A DNA stretch of 64,000 bases from Nitrospirota bacterium (GTDB lineage Bacteria; Nitrospirota; Nitrospiria; Nitrospirales; Nitrospiraceae), in assembly GCA_002737345.1 (NCBI GenBank), contig NSIK01000004.1:62001-126000 (forward strand), read 5' to 3'. The notes under the pieces are model-generated. The model was not told the DNA's origin and did not search any database. It saw nothing but the letters and a program-made list of their open reading frames with translations. This document shows, in pieces, positions 23,939-30,733 of the stretch. How positions within the stretch are numbered: the stretch's first letter is position 1; the number at the start of each line of letters is the position of its first letter. The translations under genes and the position numbers were made by a program.

Positions 23939-24451
23939 CTATTGGTGGAGATTTTTCATCGCAGCGGCACACAGGAGGATGAAGAAGCCGATCCACAGCG
24001 CGGCTCGTTGGAAGGGGATCACTTCGTAGGATGTTTCGTTGCCTTCTTCTGCTTCATCTGATTTGAAAAGTACGGTGTAGAGGAAGAGGGTCAGCAGGCC
24101 GAGCACGAGAAATAACTTGATGAAGAAGACGGTCAGGTATTTCGCATGGTGCTGGATGCCACTGCCGGTTTGCGAGGTGATGACCTGATTGACGTAGTGG
24201 AAGTTGATGCCGCCGGTGACGAGCAAGACGACGAGCAGAACGCCCGCCACTTTCTTGTAATACTGATAGAAAGCGTCTGTGATCGGCTTGATCTGCTCTT
24301 TGGCGACTGCCTTCTTCAGTCCGGGAGTCACGGCCAGGACGAGAAAGGCGAGCCCGCCGATCCAGATGACTGCCGACAACAAGTGAAACCAATGATTGAT
24401 GATCGGGATCAGCGCATTGAGGTCTGTGAAAATGCTTTGTAGAGCGTCCAT
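23939..24451 (-). CDS. CopD-like four-helix membrane protein
   Basis: The 170-residue protein has four membrane segments. The pattern NHWFHLLSAVIWIGGLAFLVLAVTPGL, FYQYYKKVAGVLLVVLLVTGGINF, AKYLTVFFIKLFLVLGLLTLFLY and a last helix before MKNLHQ resembles CopD-type copper-resistance membrane proteins and related small haem-like integral proteins, including the conserved His in HLLSAVIWIGG. No partner CopC is nearby. It follows the radical SAM gene on the same strand by about 75 bp. Copper or haem handling is possible but not shown. Confidence 0.65.
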   Translation of the reverse strand: MDALQSIFTDLNALIPIINHWFHLLSAVIWIGGLAFLVLAVTPGLKKAVAKEQIKPITDAFYQYYKKVAGVLLVVLLVTGGINFHYVNQVITSQTGSGIQHHAKYLTVFFIKLFLVLGLLTLFLYTVLFKSDEAEEGNETSYEVIPFQRAALWIGFFILLCAAAMKNLHQ

Positions 24452-24527: not shown

Positions 24528-25910
24528 AGGCCGGAATATCGGCGCGTCGTTGCCGAATCGTTTTTTGCGGAGCTCTTCCATCAGCTCAATGGTAACCAGG
24601 GGGATATTGTTCTCACGCGCGTGCTTCTCGACGCCTTTTTTCACCATGGCGCGCAAGAAGTAGGGGATCTTGTTCAGCCGTGACTCTGAGTCGGTATCCC
24701 AAGCGATATCGCCTTCTTCAGGCGTATTGAAGGCGACTTTGATCTTCTCCCCGCCCTTTGGCGTGTAGAGACACCATTCATCTTCGTCCAGCCAGTCTCC
24801 GTGATCGACGTAGGGGCGAGCTCGGCAGCCGCCGCAGATGTCAGTATATTCGCAATCGCCGCATTTGCCCTTGAGTTGGGGATAGCGGAAGGAATTGAAG
24901 ACGTCGGACTTTTCCCAGAGATCGGCAAAGCTGGTCTCGCGGATGTTCCCGGCTGACAGGGGCATGTAGGGGCACGGGGTCAATTCGCCGTTCGGGGTGA
25001 CGCGCGCGTAGTTGGTGCCGGCGAGGCAGCCGCCTCCCATATAGCCGGTCGCTTTAGTGATTGGGGAGTTCGGGTCTTTCTCGTAGGCCAGCCGTTTGAA
25101 GTGGGGGGCGCAGCGGGCCCTGACGAGCATGCCTTTGTAGTTATCCTGGCAGTTGACCAGGTAGCCGAGCACTTCTTCGTATTGGGCCGGAGTGATGTCC
25201 GTGAGCTCTTCGCCGCGGCCTGTGCAGACCATGAAGAAGACATTGAGGACCTTGGCCCCGAGCTGGTGCGCCCAATCGATGACGGCTGGCAGCTCCTGGT
25301 AATTCATGGGCTGTGCGCTGAAATGCACTTGGAAGGCCAGCCCGTTCCGCTTGCAGGCTTCGATGCCGGCGAGAGCTGCTTCCCATGCGCCAGGGACGCC
25401 ACGGAACTGATTATGTTTCTGGGGATCGAGCGAATCGATGCTGATGCCCATGCCCATAACACCGATTTCGACTAGGCTCTTCGCCATCTGGTCGTTGATC
25501 AACATGCCGTTGGTCCCGAAGACCACCATGAAGCCCTGTTTCACGGCATGGCGCGCGATGTCGAGAATGTCGGGACGGACGAGCGGTTCGCCGCCCGTGA
25601 TGACGATAAGGCAGCCCTTGTTGACCTCGGCAATCTGATCGATGAGTTTGAAACATTCTTCGGTCGAGAGTTCGTCGTCTCCGCCGGCGGCCTTCGTCGT
25701 CGCGTCGAGATAGCAATGGTCACACTTGAGATTGCAGCGTTTCGTGAGGTTCAGTGCGAGCAGATAGGGCTTGAAGTCATCGACGGTTCTGCCGTCGTGA
25801 GGCGCCGGAGTCGTAGAGGTCGGCGTAAAGAACTGTGTGACTTGCTGTTGGATGGAGCCGAGCGTTCCTGACAGAGCCGGGAAGTTCAGGACCGGGAGAG
25901 ACCGGCCCAT
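24525..25910 (-). CDS. Radical SAM/SPASM protein with C-terminal PCP_red-like domain
   Basis: The 461-residue protein has the radical SAM cluster C59-x3-C63-x2-C66 (KRCNLKCDHC), followed by ITGGEPLVRPD and a TIM-barrel body. A SPASM-type auxiliary cluster is indicated by GGCLAG, TPCPYMPLSAGN and CGDCEYTDICGGCRAR. The layout resembles the NirJ/AhbD haem-modifying and peptide-modifying groups. The last 50 residues (RLNKIPYFLRAMVKKGVEKHARENNIP) look like a PCP_red domain, as found at the end of protochlorophyllide-reductase B subunits. The start overlaps the stop of the stress-protein fusion (TGATG), which itself has three such domains, so the two probably work together. Substrate unknown. Confidence 0.8.
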   Translation of the reverse strand: MGRSLPVLNFPALSGTLGSIQQQVTQFFTPTSTTPAPHDGRTVDDFKPYLLALNLTKRCNLKCDHCYLDATTKAAGGDDELSTEECFKLIDQIAEVNKGCLIVITGGEPLVRPDILDIARHAVKQGFMVVFGTNGMLINDQMAKSLVEIGVMGMGISIDSLDPQKHNQFRGVPGAWEAALAGIEACKRNGLAFQVHFSAQPMNYQELPAVIDWAHQLGAKVLNVFFMVCTGRGEELTDITPAQYEEVLGYLVNCQDNYKGMLVRARCAPHFKRLAYEKDPNSPITKATGYMGGGCLAGTNYARVTPNGELTPCPYMPLSAGNIRETSFADLWEKSDVFNSFRYPQLKGKCGDCEYTDICGGCRARPYVDHGDWLDEDEWCLYTPKGGEKIKVAFNTPEEGDIAWDTDSESRLNKIPYFLRAMVKKGVEKHARENNIPLVTIELMEELRKKRFGNDAPIFRP

Positions 25911-28036
25911 CAGCGGCTGGCCCCTGACTTCGGTGCACCGGTCAGGTTAGCGATCATGTCCTTCAGATTGCCGGTCTTCATCGCGTCCGCCATGTAGTCC
26001 TTGGCTTGCTCGATTCCCTCATTGGCCACTTCGGCGGTGATGGTCGTGGCGCCGATCTTTTCCGCATGTTTTTCGATCAGGGCGCGGGTACATTCGCGCA
26101 TGAACCCTTCCGGCGCCCGCTCGAGTCTGGCCTGCGCATCAGGCGACCAGATATAGGGAGAGGCAGGGGCGGCGGCTTCCGCTGTCTGGCCACTCCCGTT
26201 TTCATGACCGTTTTCGTGGGAGGCAGCTGCGCCGTTGGTTCCGTTCGTAGCAGCAGTCACGGTGGCCCGGGCTTCGGTCGAGGCGCCAGTTCCCTTGTTC
26301 GCGAAAATGGGGGTGTAGTCTTCAGCTGCCGCTTCCTGAATGATGGGGGCTGCATATTCCAGCGTGATCGTGGTCATGCCGAGTTTGCGGGCGGTCTTTT
26401 CGATTTTGGCCTTGGCGCGCCGGCGTTGGAATCCTGCAGGGACCGCACGGATTCCTTCTTTGGCGTCCTTCGTCCATTGCATGGGGACGTCATCGTAAGA
26501 CAGATCCGTTTCAAGGGCACCTTCGGCGTTGGCGGCTGATTCGAAGATGGTCTTGTCGACGAGTTTAAAGCGGTCGCCGCCTGCGGCACAGACGGGGCAC
26601 TTCACGGGCGTCTCGCCCTTGCCGATGTAGCCGCAACCGTCGCAGACGAAGTAGTTCTGGTTCATCCGGTCCAGGTAGGCTTGGGTCGCTTCACTGACTT
26701 TCGGTTTTTCTTCCACGATCTCGGTCATCATGCCGCTGAGGGTCGAGCCCATCAGGTCCTTCGCCACGGACTCGTCCGCCTGCATCTTGTCGCGGTCGAT
26801 GCCGGCTGCTTCGAGACTGCCGCCCAATGCACGCATGGCGTCCATCGCGCCCTTGGGCAGGATGTGGCCGATGGCCGTATCGACGACCGTGTTGCTGATA
26901 ATGGTATGGCCCTTTTCGATGGCATAACGATGGATAGCCGTCTTGGCGACGCCTCTGGCGAAGATCGGGATTTTTTCCATCCGGCGAAGGGCTTCTTCCG
27001 TCCAGGCGATGGTGTATTCCGCCAAGGTATCGATCGGAGGCACGTACTTTCTGTTCGAGACCAGGATATTGCAAGGCGCGGCGCGCAAGAGATTCTCCGT
27101 GTTGCTGCCAATGTCCATATCCTCGTCGCTATGTACGCCGATCCGTCCGACGATGAGCAAGGCAGGAATGTCCTTGCGGACATATTGAATGATCTTTTCG
27201 AAGGCTTTGCCATCTAGAAGAGTGGTCTTGACGTCCGTCTGCTCGGCTTGCGCGATTTCGCGGCAGATATCGAGGTGCGACTGGTAGATCTTCGCGAGAC
27301 CGCTGTCAATGATTTCTTCGTGGAGCTTTTCCTGTTCCTTGAACCGGAACACCTTGCCGGCCTCCTCGTTGAGGACGCCCGAGATGCTATGGAAGGCGGC
27401 ATAGTGGAAATAGGGATCGAAGGCGGAGATGGCTTCGACCGGCATGTTGAAGGCCTTGCCGAGCGCCAGGCCTGTCATGAGTCCACCGAACGAATAGGGG
27501 CTGCCGTCTACTGCGACCACGATTCTGCCGCTGGTCATAGGTTGGGTCTGTTTGACGATCAGCATGTCCGAATTGCGCACGCGACGAAGTACGCGCTCGG
27601 TGTTGCTGCCGATCACGCTGTCCTTCACTGCGCCGACGCCCAAGGCGCCCATGATCACAAGATCGTAGGCGTTTGAATTAATATCTTCTGCCAGGACCTT
27701 CCAGTTCCGGCCTTCGAGCGAACGGCGCTCGATCGGCAGGTTGTTCTCCGCACATTTCTTATCGACATAGTCGAGGTAGGAGTCGGTGATGATCTGGAGG
27801 CCGCGGGTAATCAGCGAATCGTGGATCTGGCGCTGCCGGTCGAGTTCTTTTTCATCGTGATATTCTTCAGGCAAGCCCGCTTCCATCTGTTTGAAGCGCT
27901 TATCATGCATTTTGGCCGCATAGACGTGGCTGCCCACGATCTTTGAGCCGAAGGCCTTGGCGAAGTGCACTCCGATGTCGACAGCGGTGTTGGAATGGTC
28001 GGAGTTATCAACCGGCACGTAGATCGTCTTATACAT
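25910..28036 (-). CDS. Tandem universal stress protein fused to rubredoxin-like and three PCP_red-like domains
   Basis: A 708-residue cytoplasmic protein of unusual layout. Residues 1-165 and 170-328 are two Usp domains; both keep the nucleotide-binding pattern G-x2-G-x9-GS (GALGVGAVKDSVIGSN, GRIGVHSDEDMDIGSN). Residues about 343-390 (WTEEALRRMEKIPIFARGVAKTA), 521-568 (WTKDAKEGIRAVPAGF) and 629-676 (WSPDAQARLERAPEGF) are PCP_red-like repeats. C465, C468, C480 and C483 form a rubredoxin-type iron or zinc site. A Thr/Asn/Gly-rich linker lies at 580-625. It is coupled to the radical SAM gene, suggesting an ATP-sensing or electron-transfer partner for that enzyme; this is inference. Confidence 0.8.
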   Translation of the reverse strand: MYKTIYVPVDNSDHSNTAVDIGVHFAKAFGSKIVGSHVYAAKMHDKRFKQMEAGLPEEYHDEKELDRQRQIHDSLITRGLQIITDSYLDYVDKKCAENNLPIERRSLEGRNWKVLAEDINSNAYDLVIMGALGVGAVKDSVIGSNTERVLRRVRNSDMLIVKQTQPMTSGRIVVAVDGSPYSFGGLMTGLALGKAFNMPVEAISAFDPYFHYAAFHSISGVLNEEAGKVFRFKEQEKLHEEIIDSGLAKIYQSHLDICREIAQAEQTDVKTTLLDGKAFEKIIQYVRKDIPALLIVGRIGVHSDEDMDIGSNTENLLRAAPCNILVSNRKYVPPIDTLAEYTIAWTEEALRRMEKIPIFARGVAKTAIHRYAIEKGHTIISNTVVDTAIGHILPKGAMDAMRALGGSLEAAGIDRDKMQADESVAKDLMGSTLSGMMTEIVEEKPKVSEATQAYLDRMNQNYFVCDGCGYIGKGETPVKCPVCAAGGDRFKLVDKTIFESAANAEGALETDLSYDDVPMQWTKDAKEGIRAVPAGFQRRRAKAKIEKTARKLGMTTITLEYAAPIIQEAAAEDYTPIFANKGTGASTEARATVTAATNGTNGAAASHENGHENGSGQTAEAAAPASPYIWSPDAQARLERAPEGFMRECTRALIEKHAEKIGATTITAEVANEGIEQAKDYMADAMKTGNLKDMIANLTGAPKSGASR

Positions 28037-28193: not shown

Positions 28194-29825
28194 TTAGGCC
28201 CCTCGTATGGCAGCGGATTTGTCGCCGGAATCCTTTGTGGAACGCAGCGATTGCCGAGAGCGGAGGATCTCTTCCAGGGACAGAAGAGCCTCGCGGCCGG
28301 AGTTCCCTTCGATTCCACGGATCAAGCTCTTGTCGGCATAAGATCCTGATTCCTTAGGGGTTTGGGATAGAGATCCAGTCCATTTTCTGGGGTCTCTGCT
28401 GCCTTCTTTCCGTTCCCAGGCCCTGAGGCAGGCCTTGGCAATGAAGGAGTTGAGCGGCGCCGGATTGTAAAGGAGCTTCCTGATACTGGTCGGGGTCAGC
28501 ATTAGGGGGTTATAGCCGGCCGAGAGGTAGCCCTCCTCCAGTAGCCGTTGCTCCAGATCCGTGTTCGGTTGAATACCTAAAAAGAACATGAGGGGGAATA
28601 CCCGCTCTTCACCCAGGATCGCGGCGATATTTTTGTAGGACTCCACGCTTTGGAGCAGCGACTCCTCAGTCTCTTTGGGGCTGTTCAGCGAATAATTGAG
28701 GATGACCTTCCCCTTGAACCCCGCTTCTGCCAGGTAGCGGCAGCCGTCGTAGAGCTTCTCCAGCTTGAACCCCATGTGGAGGTCGTTCAGCACCTCCTGG
28801 GAGCCAGACGTAATAGCGACTTCAAGGTCCCCGACGCCGGACCGGACCATGAGCTTGGCCAATTCCGGGGTGATGAGCGAGGTTCTGATGTAGCCGGACC
28901 ATTCAATCTCCAGCTTCTCTGCGAGAATCCGTTCCAAGATCTCGGTGCATTGGGGGTAGGCTTCTTTCCCCGTAATGAACTGCGCATCCGTGAACCAGAA
29001 ACGTCTGGCGCCCCATTGATGGTAGTGCTGAGAGATATCCTTGACGACCATGGAGGGGGGCCGATAGCGGACCCGCTTGCCTTCAATATACGGGTAGAGG
29101 CAGAAGGCGCAGTCGTAGGGGCAGCCTCGTTTTGACTGGACCCCGATGGACTCACCCAGGTATTCCGTATATTGCGGGAAAATCGAGGTCAGGTAGGGCA
29201 AGTCCACGGTGAGTGCATCGAGGAGAGCCGGCGCTCCCTGCTGGCCTTTCCGAACGGTTTTCCCTTCCCTGACGATGTAGCGCTCCTGCTCCAGCGATTG
29301 GCCTTCGACCACCTTGAGGATGGCATCTTCACCTTCTCCCAGAATCCCGATGGTACCTTCCGGAAGTTTCTGGATGAGCTGATCGGCAAAGGCAGTAAAG
29401 GCCCCTCCGCCGATCATCATCTGCGCCCTCGGGAATTCCTTTGCGATCAACCAGGGATAGGAGAGCGCCGCCCGGATGTGGCTGTAGTAGCGGTAGAGCT
29501 GTTGCAGCCCCGCAAAGGAGGCGGTGATCCGTTTGAGGGGGTTGCTGGCAAAGTAAAAGTTAAACGCATGTTCCAGCGAAGAGTCTCCCTCGTGTGGGGA
29601 GAAGATCTGGATATCGCGCCAGGAAAAACAGACGAGGTCCGGCTTGAATTCGGTGGCCGCGTGGCGGACCGCGCTGATCCGTTGGTCTTCGGGAAAGAGC
29701 GACAGGTCGAGGATGCGCTGTCGCACCTCCGGCTTGCGCCGATGGATAAAATCAGCCAGATAGGTCACCCCGATGGGGTAGACTTTTTTGCATGGCAGAA
29801 AAATATAAAGGATTGATTCCATCAT
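28194..29825 (-). CDS. B12-binding domain radical SAM protein
   Basis: The 543-residue protein begins with a Rossmann-type cobalamin-binding domain (VYPIGVTYLADFIHRRKP, FKPDLVCFSWRD, MMIGGGAFTAFADQL, GILGEGEDAI) and then a radical SAM domain with C235-x3-C239-x2-C242 (SKRGCPYDCAFC). The order and the YIEGKRVRYRPP segment are typical of class B/BchE-like radical SAM enzymes, which act on lipids, bacteriochlorin or other hydrophobic substrates. Two ATGs are adjacent at the start. It lies between the ubiE/menE-type methyltransferase and the stress-protein fusion, all on the minus strand. Substrate unknown; the C-terminal 70 residues are charged and variable. Confidence 0.8.
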   Translation of the reverse strand: MMESILYIFLPCKKVYPIGVTYLADFIHRRKPEVRQRILDLSLFPEDQRISAVRHAATEFKPDLVCFSWRDIQIFSPHEGDSSLEHAFNFYFASNPLKRITASFAGLQQLYRYYSHIRAALSYPWLIAKEFPRAQMMIGGGAFTAFADQLIQKLPEGTIGILGEGEDAILKVVEGQSLEQERYIVREGKTVRKGQQGAPALLDALTVDLPYLTSIFPQYTEYLGESIGVQSKRGCPYDCAFCLYPYIEGKRVRYRPPSMVVKDISQHYHQWGARRFWFTDAQFITGKEAYPQCTEILERILAEKLEIEWSGYIRTSLITPELAKLMVRSGVGDLEVAITSGSQEVLNDLHMGFKLEKLYDGCRYLAEAGFKGKVILNYSLNSPKETEESLLQSVESYKNIAAILGEERVFPLMFFLGIQPNTDLEQRLLEEGYLSAGYNPLMLTPTSIRKLLYNPAPLNSFIAKACLRAWERKEGSRDPRKWTGSLSQTPKESGSYADKSLIRGIEGNSGREALLSLEEILRSRQSLRSTKDSGDKSAAIRGA

Positions 29826-29895: not shown

Positions 29896-30678
29896 TCATT
29901 TCGTCGCTACATGAATCGCCACGATCCCGCCGGTCAGGTTGCGATAGGTGACCTGGCTGAAGCCTGCATCGAGGAGTATCTGCTTCAGCCGTTCCTGGTC
30001 GGGGAAGTTCCTGATAGAAGCAGGGAGATATGCGTAGACGCCGGTTGTGTCATGCGCCACCTTTGTCCCGATCCAGGGAAGCAGTTGGAACGAGTACCAA
30101 TCATACAGAGCCCGCAGCCATCCTAAGACCGGCCGGGAAAACTCGAGACAGACAAACCGCCCGCCCGGCTGTAAGATCCGGTGAATTTCCGTAACCGCCT
30201 GTTTGAGATCTCCGACGTTCCTTATGCAAAACCCCGTCGTCACGGCATGAAAGGTCCCGTCGGGAAACCCCAGATGTTCGGCATTGGCCTCAAGGCAGGT
30301 GATTCGATGTCCCAGCCCCTTGTTTGTGACTTTTTTCAGTCCCTCGACCAGCATGGCATGGTTCAAGTCTGAGGCAATGACCCGGCCATTGACCCCCATG
30401 CGGGGCTCGATCAAGAGGGCCAGGTCTGCTGTGCCGGCTCCCACGTCGAGGGCCCTGCCTCCCGTCGTGACGGGGACATAGGAGGCGGTCATTTTTTTCC
30501 AGCGGTGGTGGAGCCCGAAACTTAAGAGTGTGTTGTTGAAGTCATAGACGCCAGCGATCGCGGTAAACATCCGCTGGACCGCTTGTTCGCGTGCCTGGCC
30601 AGACCAGGTCGAGACAGCGAGCGGGGCAGCCGGAGCGTCCGTCCCATTCTGGGCTGGCGGTGTATGAGCTTGGGCCAT
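29896..30678 (-). CDS. ubiE: Demethylmenaquinone/ubiquinone methyltransferase (UbiE/MenG family)
   Basis: The 260-residue product performs the last ring methylation of menaquinone (or C-methylation of ubiquinone). Family motifs are [32 protein letters not shown] motif [30 protein letters not shown] and the end motif [17 protein letters not shown] use ATG 30678; an earlier in-frame start at 30714 would run into the divergent uvrA promoter and adds no conserved residues. The adjacent nuo and quinone-linked respiratory genes make the menaquinone role likely. Confidence 0.9.
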
Positions 30679-30733
30679 GAGAGGGTGGTAGCATCGGCCT
30701 TCCAAGTTTGTCAAGGCGAACCAGTCTGCATGT

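Follow-up and report, generated by a model that had tools for sequence, protein, structure and literature searches.

The closest described systems each share one part with the locus analysed here. Subunit B of DPOR (BchB/ChlB; PDB 3aek, 2xdq, 8vqi) ends in a PCP_red domain. Tandem universal stress proteins such as Rv2623 (3cis), TTHA0350 (3ab8, with ATP) and UspE contain two Usp folds with ATP loops, and the rubredoxin-like domain of rubrerythrin and nigerythrin (PF21349) carries a CxxCGY...CPxC site. NirJ2, AhbD and NirJ (TIGR04055, TIGR04545, TIGR04051) join a Radical_SAM core to a SPASM domain and retain all the cluster cysteines. In the window, a 64,000-nucleotide stretch of a Nitrospirota contig, these parts occur together in two genes (Table 1). 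The first, usp, encodes a tandem-Usp protein with a composite tail, and the second encodes a radical SAM/SPASM protein (rSAM); the usp stop and the rSAM start overlap by 1 nt (TGATG). The open-access literature searched yielded no description of such a pair, or of PCP_red (PF08369) in such a system. The host is probably nitrite-oxidising and most likely a Nitrospira, judging from an nxrA homologue in the 1.67-Mb source genome and the mpqE gene inside the window.

Table 1. Coordinates of the gene pair, its parts and related features. Positions are those of the window unless a locus prefix is given.
Feature	Position	Strand	Remarks
usp gene: tandem-Usp / rubredoxin-like / 3x PCP_red protein, 708 aa	25910..28036	(-)	ORF call and Pfam
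Usp domain 1 (aa 1-161)	27554..28036	(-)	ATP motif GALGVGAVKDSVIGS at aa 130; helical insert with invariant H44, H72
Usp domain 2 (about aa 170-328)	27053..27529	(-)	ATP motif GRIGVHSDEDMDIGS at aa 297; invariant H211, H239, H302
PCP_red copy 1 of Usp protein	26873..27004	(-)	
Rubredoxin-like site of Usp protein (RUBY_RBDX, aa 463-491)	26564..26650	(-)	CDGCGYIGKGETPVKCPVC
PCP_red copy 2 of Usp protein	26357..26476	(-)	
PCP_red copy 3 of Usp protein	26024..26149	(-)	
rSAM gene: radical SAM/SPASM protein with C-terminal PCP_red, 461 aa	24525..25910	(-)	
Radical_SAM core of rSAM	25335..25751	(-)	CxxxCxxC (CNLKCDHC)
SPASM domain of rSAM	24849..25028	(-)	
PCP_red copy of rSAM	24567..24701	(-)	
Small membrane protein, CopD/DUF4149-like, family c2	23939..24451	(-)	Conserved downstream neighbour within Nitrospiria, 13 loci
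mpqE	29896-30714	(-)	Passes NCBIfam cut-off; two genes upstream of the pair
rSAM + PCP_red-repeat fusion, 716 aa	L087:4763-6913	(-)	Also in G008, G049

The preliminary description, made from the letters alone, had assigned two Usp domains, a rubredoxin-like site and three PCP_red repeats to the Usp protein, and Pfam confirms this architecture. Usp (PF00582) matches in two stretches (109 bits against a cut-off of 24, E 2.8e-31), PCP_red (PF08369) in the three proposed segments (111 bits against a cut-off of 32.5, E 2e-32), and RUBY_RBDX (PF21349) marginally (26.8 bits against a cut-off of 26.5), with the four cysteines present. The model of the protein resembles tandem Usps such as Rv2623 and TTHA0350-ATP (Foldseek, E 6e-16). 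A predicted ATP loop, G-2x-G-9x-G-S, is found in both Usp domains, and the pattern G-2x-G-9x-G-S/T is kept in most orthologues throughout the phylum. Unlike the described tandem Usps, this protein has family-specific helical inserts with invariant histidines, unmatched in solved Usp sequences, and it adds a rubredoxin-like and PCP_red tail as well as an rSAM partner. Two long helical inserts are seen in the model; profile matches to solved Usps span the Usp core and leave the inserts uncovered. All of 30 orthologues compared keep H37, H44, H72, H211, H239 and H302 unchanged, and these residues could serve as ligands of a metal, heme or substrate.

The CxxCGY...CPxC site is kept in all full-length Nitrospirales-type orthologues of the Usp protein. 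In contrast to that of rubrerythrin and nigerythrin, it scores marginally, stands without a diiron domain and is missing from the Usp of anaerobic relatives; its metal may be redox-active iron or zinc. Read from its motifs, the conserved ATP loops and the rubredoxin-like Cys4, Usp may be a nucleotide-sensing redox protein. The composition of the tail varies with lineage: 0 PCP_red and no rubredoxin-like site in anaerobic relatives, one PCP_red in L099, two without rubredoxin in L085-L087, three with rubredoxin in Nitrospirales and L088, and five with three CxxC-CxxC sites in L081, L082, L104 and L105.

In a sample of 396 Nitrospirota genomes, usp is present in 198, comprising 162 of the 164 genomes of its own class and 36 of 232 outside it; the best Usp matches within the order are 75-98% identical. 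Among the matches listed, usp and rSAM are adjacent on one strand in 156 of the 161 genomes that have both, and rSAM lies downstream of usp in 155 of 157 pairs. Even where Usp identity has fallen to about 31-36%, as in Thermodesulfovibrionales-type genomes such as Candidatus Magnetobacterium casense and JdFR-88, the linkage holds. A contig scan with the short form of Usp, the one scan reaching beyond Nitrospirota, returned 21 loci, all from Nitrospirota records. The linkage anticipated in the preliminary description is conserved across genomes, so that neither of the refuting conditions set there, a lack of PF08369 matches or a lack of conserved linkage, holds; the case that usp and rSAM form a functional unit is strong. 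Several unspecified UspA proteins of Nitrospira marina are up at low oxygen and adjoin co-induced operons (PMC8115632), which would fit Usp as an ordinary low-oxygen stress regulator with rSAM as an unrelated neighbour. That reading, already disfavoured, is contradicted by the linkage, by the PCP_red domain shared between the two proteins and by the fusions of a repeat protein to either partner described below, and its probability is close to negligible.

The fourth PCP_red copy, which had been placed at the end of rSAM, is confirmed by Pfam (E 3e-14, 53 bits against a cut-off of 32.5). The accompanying statement that PCP_red is otherwise known from the ends of DPOR B subunits does not hold for the source genome, which has 12 copies in 5 ORFs, none of them a DPOR subunit. 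These are Usp (three copies), rSAM (one), a 333-aa repeat protein (four; L014:2846-3847), a protein with two copies encoded behind an Mrp/NBP35-type ATPase, and a protein of 167 aa (two). Among BchB models only the PCP_red tail matches. In contrast to DPOR subunit B, which is recognised by a nitrogenase-like oxidoreductase domain together with BchL/BchN, the present proteins have no such domain and no BchL/BchN, and PCP_red sits on the Usp and rSAM of a non-phototroph.

The PCP_red-repeat protein occurs in several arrangements. In L087 it forms a co-linear fusion with rSAM (E 2e-63), in L085 and L086 a fusion with Usp (E 8e-26 and 2e-23, respectively), and in L081 and L082 it is a free gene adjoining rSAM. 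Outside the class it is found in 13 genomes, 13/13 of them usp-bearing (p 4e-12, a significance overstated by the relatedness of the genomes). Because one module attaches to either partner, there is strong evidence that Usp, rSAM and the PCP_red-repeat protein work together. Using a local PCP_red profile, the domain was detected on 48 of 48 intact linked-type rSAMs and on 0 other rSAMs, including heme-operon paralogs; Pfam confirms it on the linked rSAMs (17/17 in one alignment). The binding surface once proposed to be common to both proteins has to be qualified: PCP_red is constant on rSAM, but Usp is devoid of it in the anaerobic lineages; the pair can thus work without PCP_red on both proteins. 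As a separate observation, at L013:7887-9591 the gene of an Mrp/NBP35 P-loop ATPase immediately precedes that of a cysteine-motif protein which has two PCP_red, an arrangement that recalls BchL/BchB, in which a NifH-like ATPase is paired with a PCP_red protein.

In addition to PCP_red, rSAM contains Radical_SAM and SPASM domains (Pfam), and its CxxxCxxC motif and SPASM cysteines are those of the radical SAM/SPASM superfamily. Its top NCBIfam profiles are NirJ2 (TIGR04055, 334 bits) and AhbD (TIGR04545, 317 bits), and it falls under the equivalog cut-off of 500 bits for both. It differs from NirJ2, AhbD and NirJ by these sub-cut-off scores, by the C-terminal PCP_red, and by being tied to Usp and not to hem or nir genes. 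The rSAM tree, which has long branches and a poor outgroup, does not firmly separate the linked rSAMs from the heme-operon paralogs and speaks for monophyly neither way.

The AhbD match raises the alternative that rSAM is a plain AhbD converting iron-coproporphyrin III to heme b, with Usp as an accessory. HemF was absent from the 16 Nitrospirales tested and HemN exceeded its cut-off only in G311 among 14 genomes tested. The hem operons of Nitrospiraceae have the order hemE-hemH-hemY, which fits a coproporphyrin pathway whose final step is carried out by AhbD or ChdC (PMC7242693); that of the source genome is without the linked rSAM. All this, with the TIGR04545 score itself, would suit an AhbD function, but the score is below the AhbD cut-off and a ChdC-family protein is found in every Nitrospirales genome tested, for which the reading was demoted. 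Furthermore, the anaerobes have, besides the linked rSAM, another AhbD-like rSAM (433-445 bits) that lacks PCP_red and is encoded beside hemE and often hemH and hemY. With ChdC in Nitrospirales and a separate AhbD-like enzyme in anaerobes, both groups have the linked rSAM as an additional enzyme. The linked rSAM is not needed for heme b synthesis, and its identity with AhbD is improbable.

Two further features of heme synthesis were seen. In G081 and G253, which are complete single-contig Nitrospirales genomes, there was no ferrochelatase family match although ChdC is present, leaving iron insertion unexplained. In L112-L118, an AhbD-like rSAM lies beside hemE (often with hemH/hemY) in genomes that tested without over-cut-off HemN, HemF or ChdC, which looks like a hybrid coproporphyrin-plus-AhbD heme pathway.

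In the anaerobic relatives the pair lies in clusters of nitrite-oxidoreductase, bd-like and cytochrome genes or of nos genes. Downstream of the pair in L147, L148, L149 and L162 are genes for a bd-like subunit and for cytochromes c, together with nxrAB, the nxrA of which matches Kuenenia NXR (E 3e-295). At other anaerobic loci the pair is found with EB_dh-type cytochromes, NosL or NosZ-type genes (nos genes in L154). Many of these loci have a third gene after the pair, c5, which encodes about 220 aa and has no Pfam match. Its AlphaFold model (pLDDT 80) matches split-barrel proteins in Foldseek (E 8e-5, TM by query about 0.4), several of the top-ranking PDB entries are heme-, FMN- or F420-binding, and c5 is tentatively predicted to have a split-barrel (flavin/heme) fold. 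It was found in 0 of 17 Nitrospiria tested and is also absent from 4 nxrA-bearing genomes without the pair; as it is missing from all the Nitrospiria tested, the system is not uniform. Outside the class, usp is present in 10 of 16 nxrA-bearing genomes and 26 of 216 others (p 1e-5, likewise overstated since the genomes are related). A role as an NXR-specific maturase was considered and rejected: many pair-bearing genomes are without NXR (26 usp-bearing genomes outside the class gave no hit), so NXR is at most one client. The four loci with nxrAB and the bd-like subunit in one operon belong to Thermodesulfovibrionales-type and magnetotactic Nitrospirota, and their NxrA is only about 42% identical to Nitrospira NxrA.

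The best explanation, which is given about an even chance, is that the two proteins are partners of a Nitrospirota-specific radical-SAM system for tetrapyrrole (or residue) modification that serves respiratory heme enzymes. The enzyme family favours a tetrapyrrole substrate, as do PCP_red and the predicted fold of c5. In such a system rSAM would belong, as a SPASM radical SAM enzyme, to the AhbD/NirJ branch, whose members remove or oxidise side chains of tetrapyrroles, and its C-terminal PCP_red most likely docks the enzyme to its partners or helps hold the tetrapyrrole. Usp would be a specialised tandem Usp with ATP loops and histidine inserts and, in Nitrospira, the rubredoxin-like site and three PCP_red; it may serve, gated by ATP, to carry the substrate or to provide a platform for assembly, its rubredoxin site relaying electrons to or from rSAM, and the two may form a physical complex. 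The product would most likely be a modified tetrapyrrole, or a modified residue, for nitrite oxidoreductase, bd-like or cytochrome c complexes. A narrower version, in which an undescribed cofactor pathway has the ATP-binding Usp carry a tetrapyrrole to the PCP_red-tagged rSAM to yield a modified heme for nitrite-oxidoreductase or bd-like complexes, is tentative. The undescribed modification system suggested in the preliminary description fits these results: its coupling of the two genes is strongly supported by adjacency, shared PCP_red and fusions, and its substrate is suggested by family resemblance.

SPASM proteins commonly modify peptides, and AhbD/NirJ-like SPASM proteins are close to the peptide-modifying SPASM enzymes. 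Protein modification for respiratory enzymes is accordingly the main rival to a tetrapyrrole substrate: rSAM would modify a protein or peptide, PCP_red would be a docking module, and Usp would be the substrate or a presenting chaperone (e.g., for NXR or a bd-like subunit). Docking would suit the PCP_red repeats that occur with Zn-ribbon or Usp domains and beside the Mrp/NBP35 ATPase, and the pair does lie inside operons of large respiratory enzymes. However, the top family profiles of rSAM are tetrapyrrole enzymes, the predicted c5 fold is common to heme and flavin proteins, and a small precursor peptide was not seen; the rival is rather unlikely. Under the favoured reading of tetrapyrrole or residue modification, a universal stress protein would gain a concrete enzymatic partner and PCP_red a wider role. 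Almost every member of Nitrospira and its class, which are the main oxidisers of nitrite in soils, waters and treatment plants, has the pair in highly conserved form, and possibly a new heme-type cofactor or protein modification lies behind nitrite oxidation.

The position of mpqE upstream suggests another assignment, to methyl-plastoquinone metabolism. The gene is on the same strand as the pair and over its NCBIfam cut-off, and the order is common to the related loci L107 and L108. However, the mpqE neighbourhood is confined to one family and the pair occurs elsewhere without mpqE, including in anaerobes, making a role in quinone metabolism very improbable. Between mpqE and usp in this family (f1) lies a gene for a B12-binding radical SAM protein (28194-29825 of the window, (-)), which scores highest with slr0320 (447 bits, under that family's cut-off of 775) and is possibly quinone-related.
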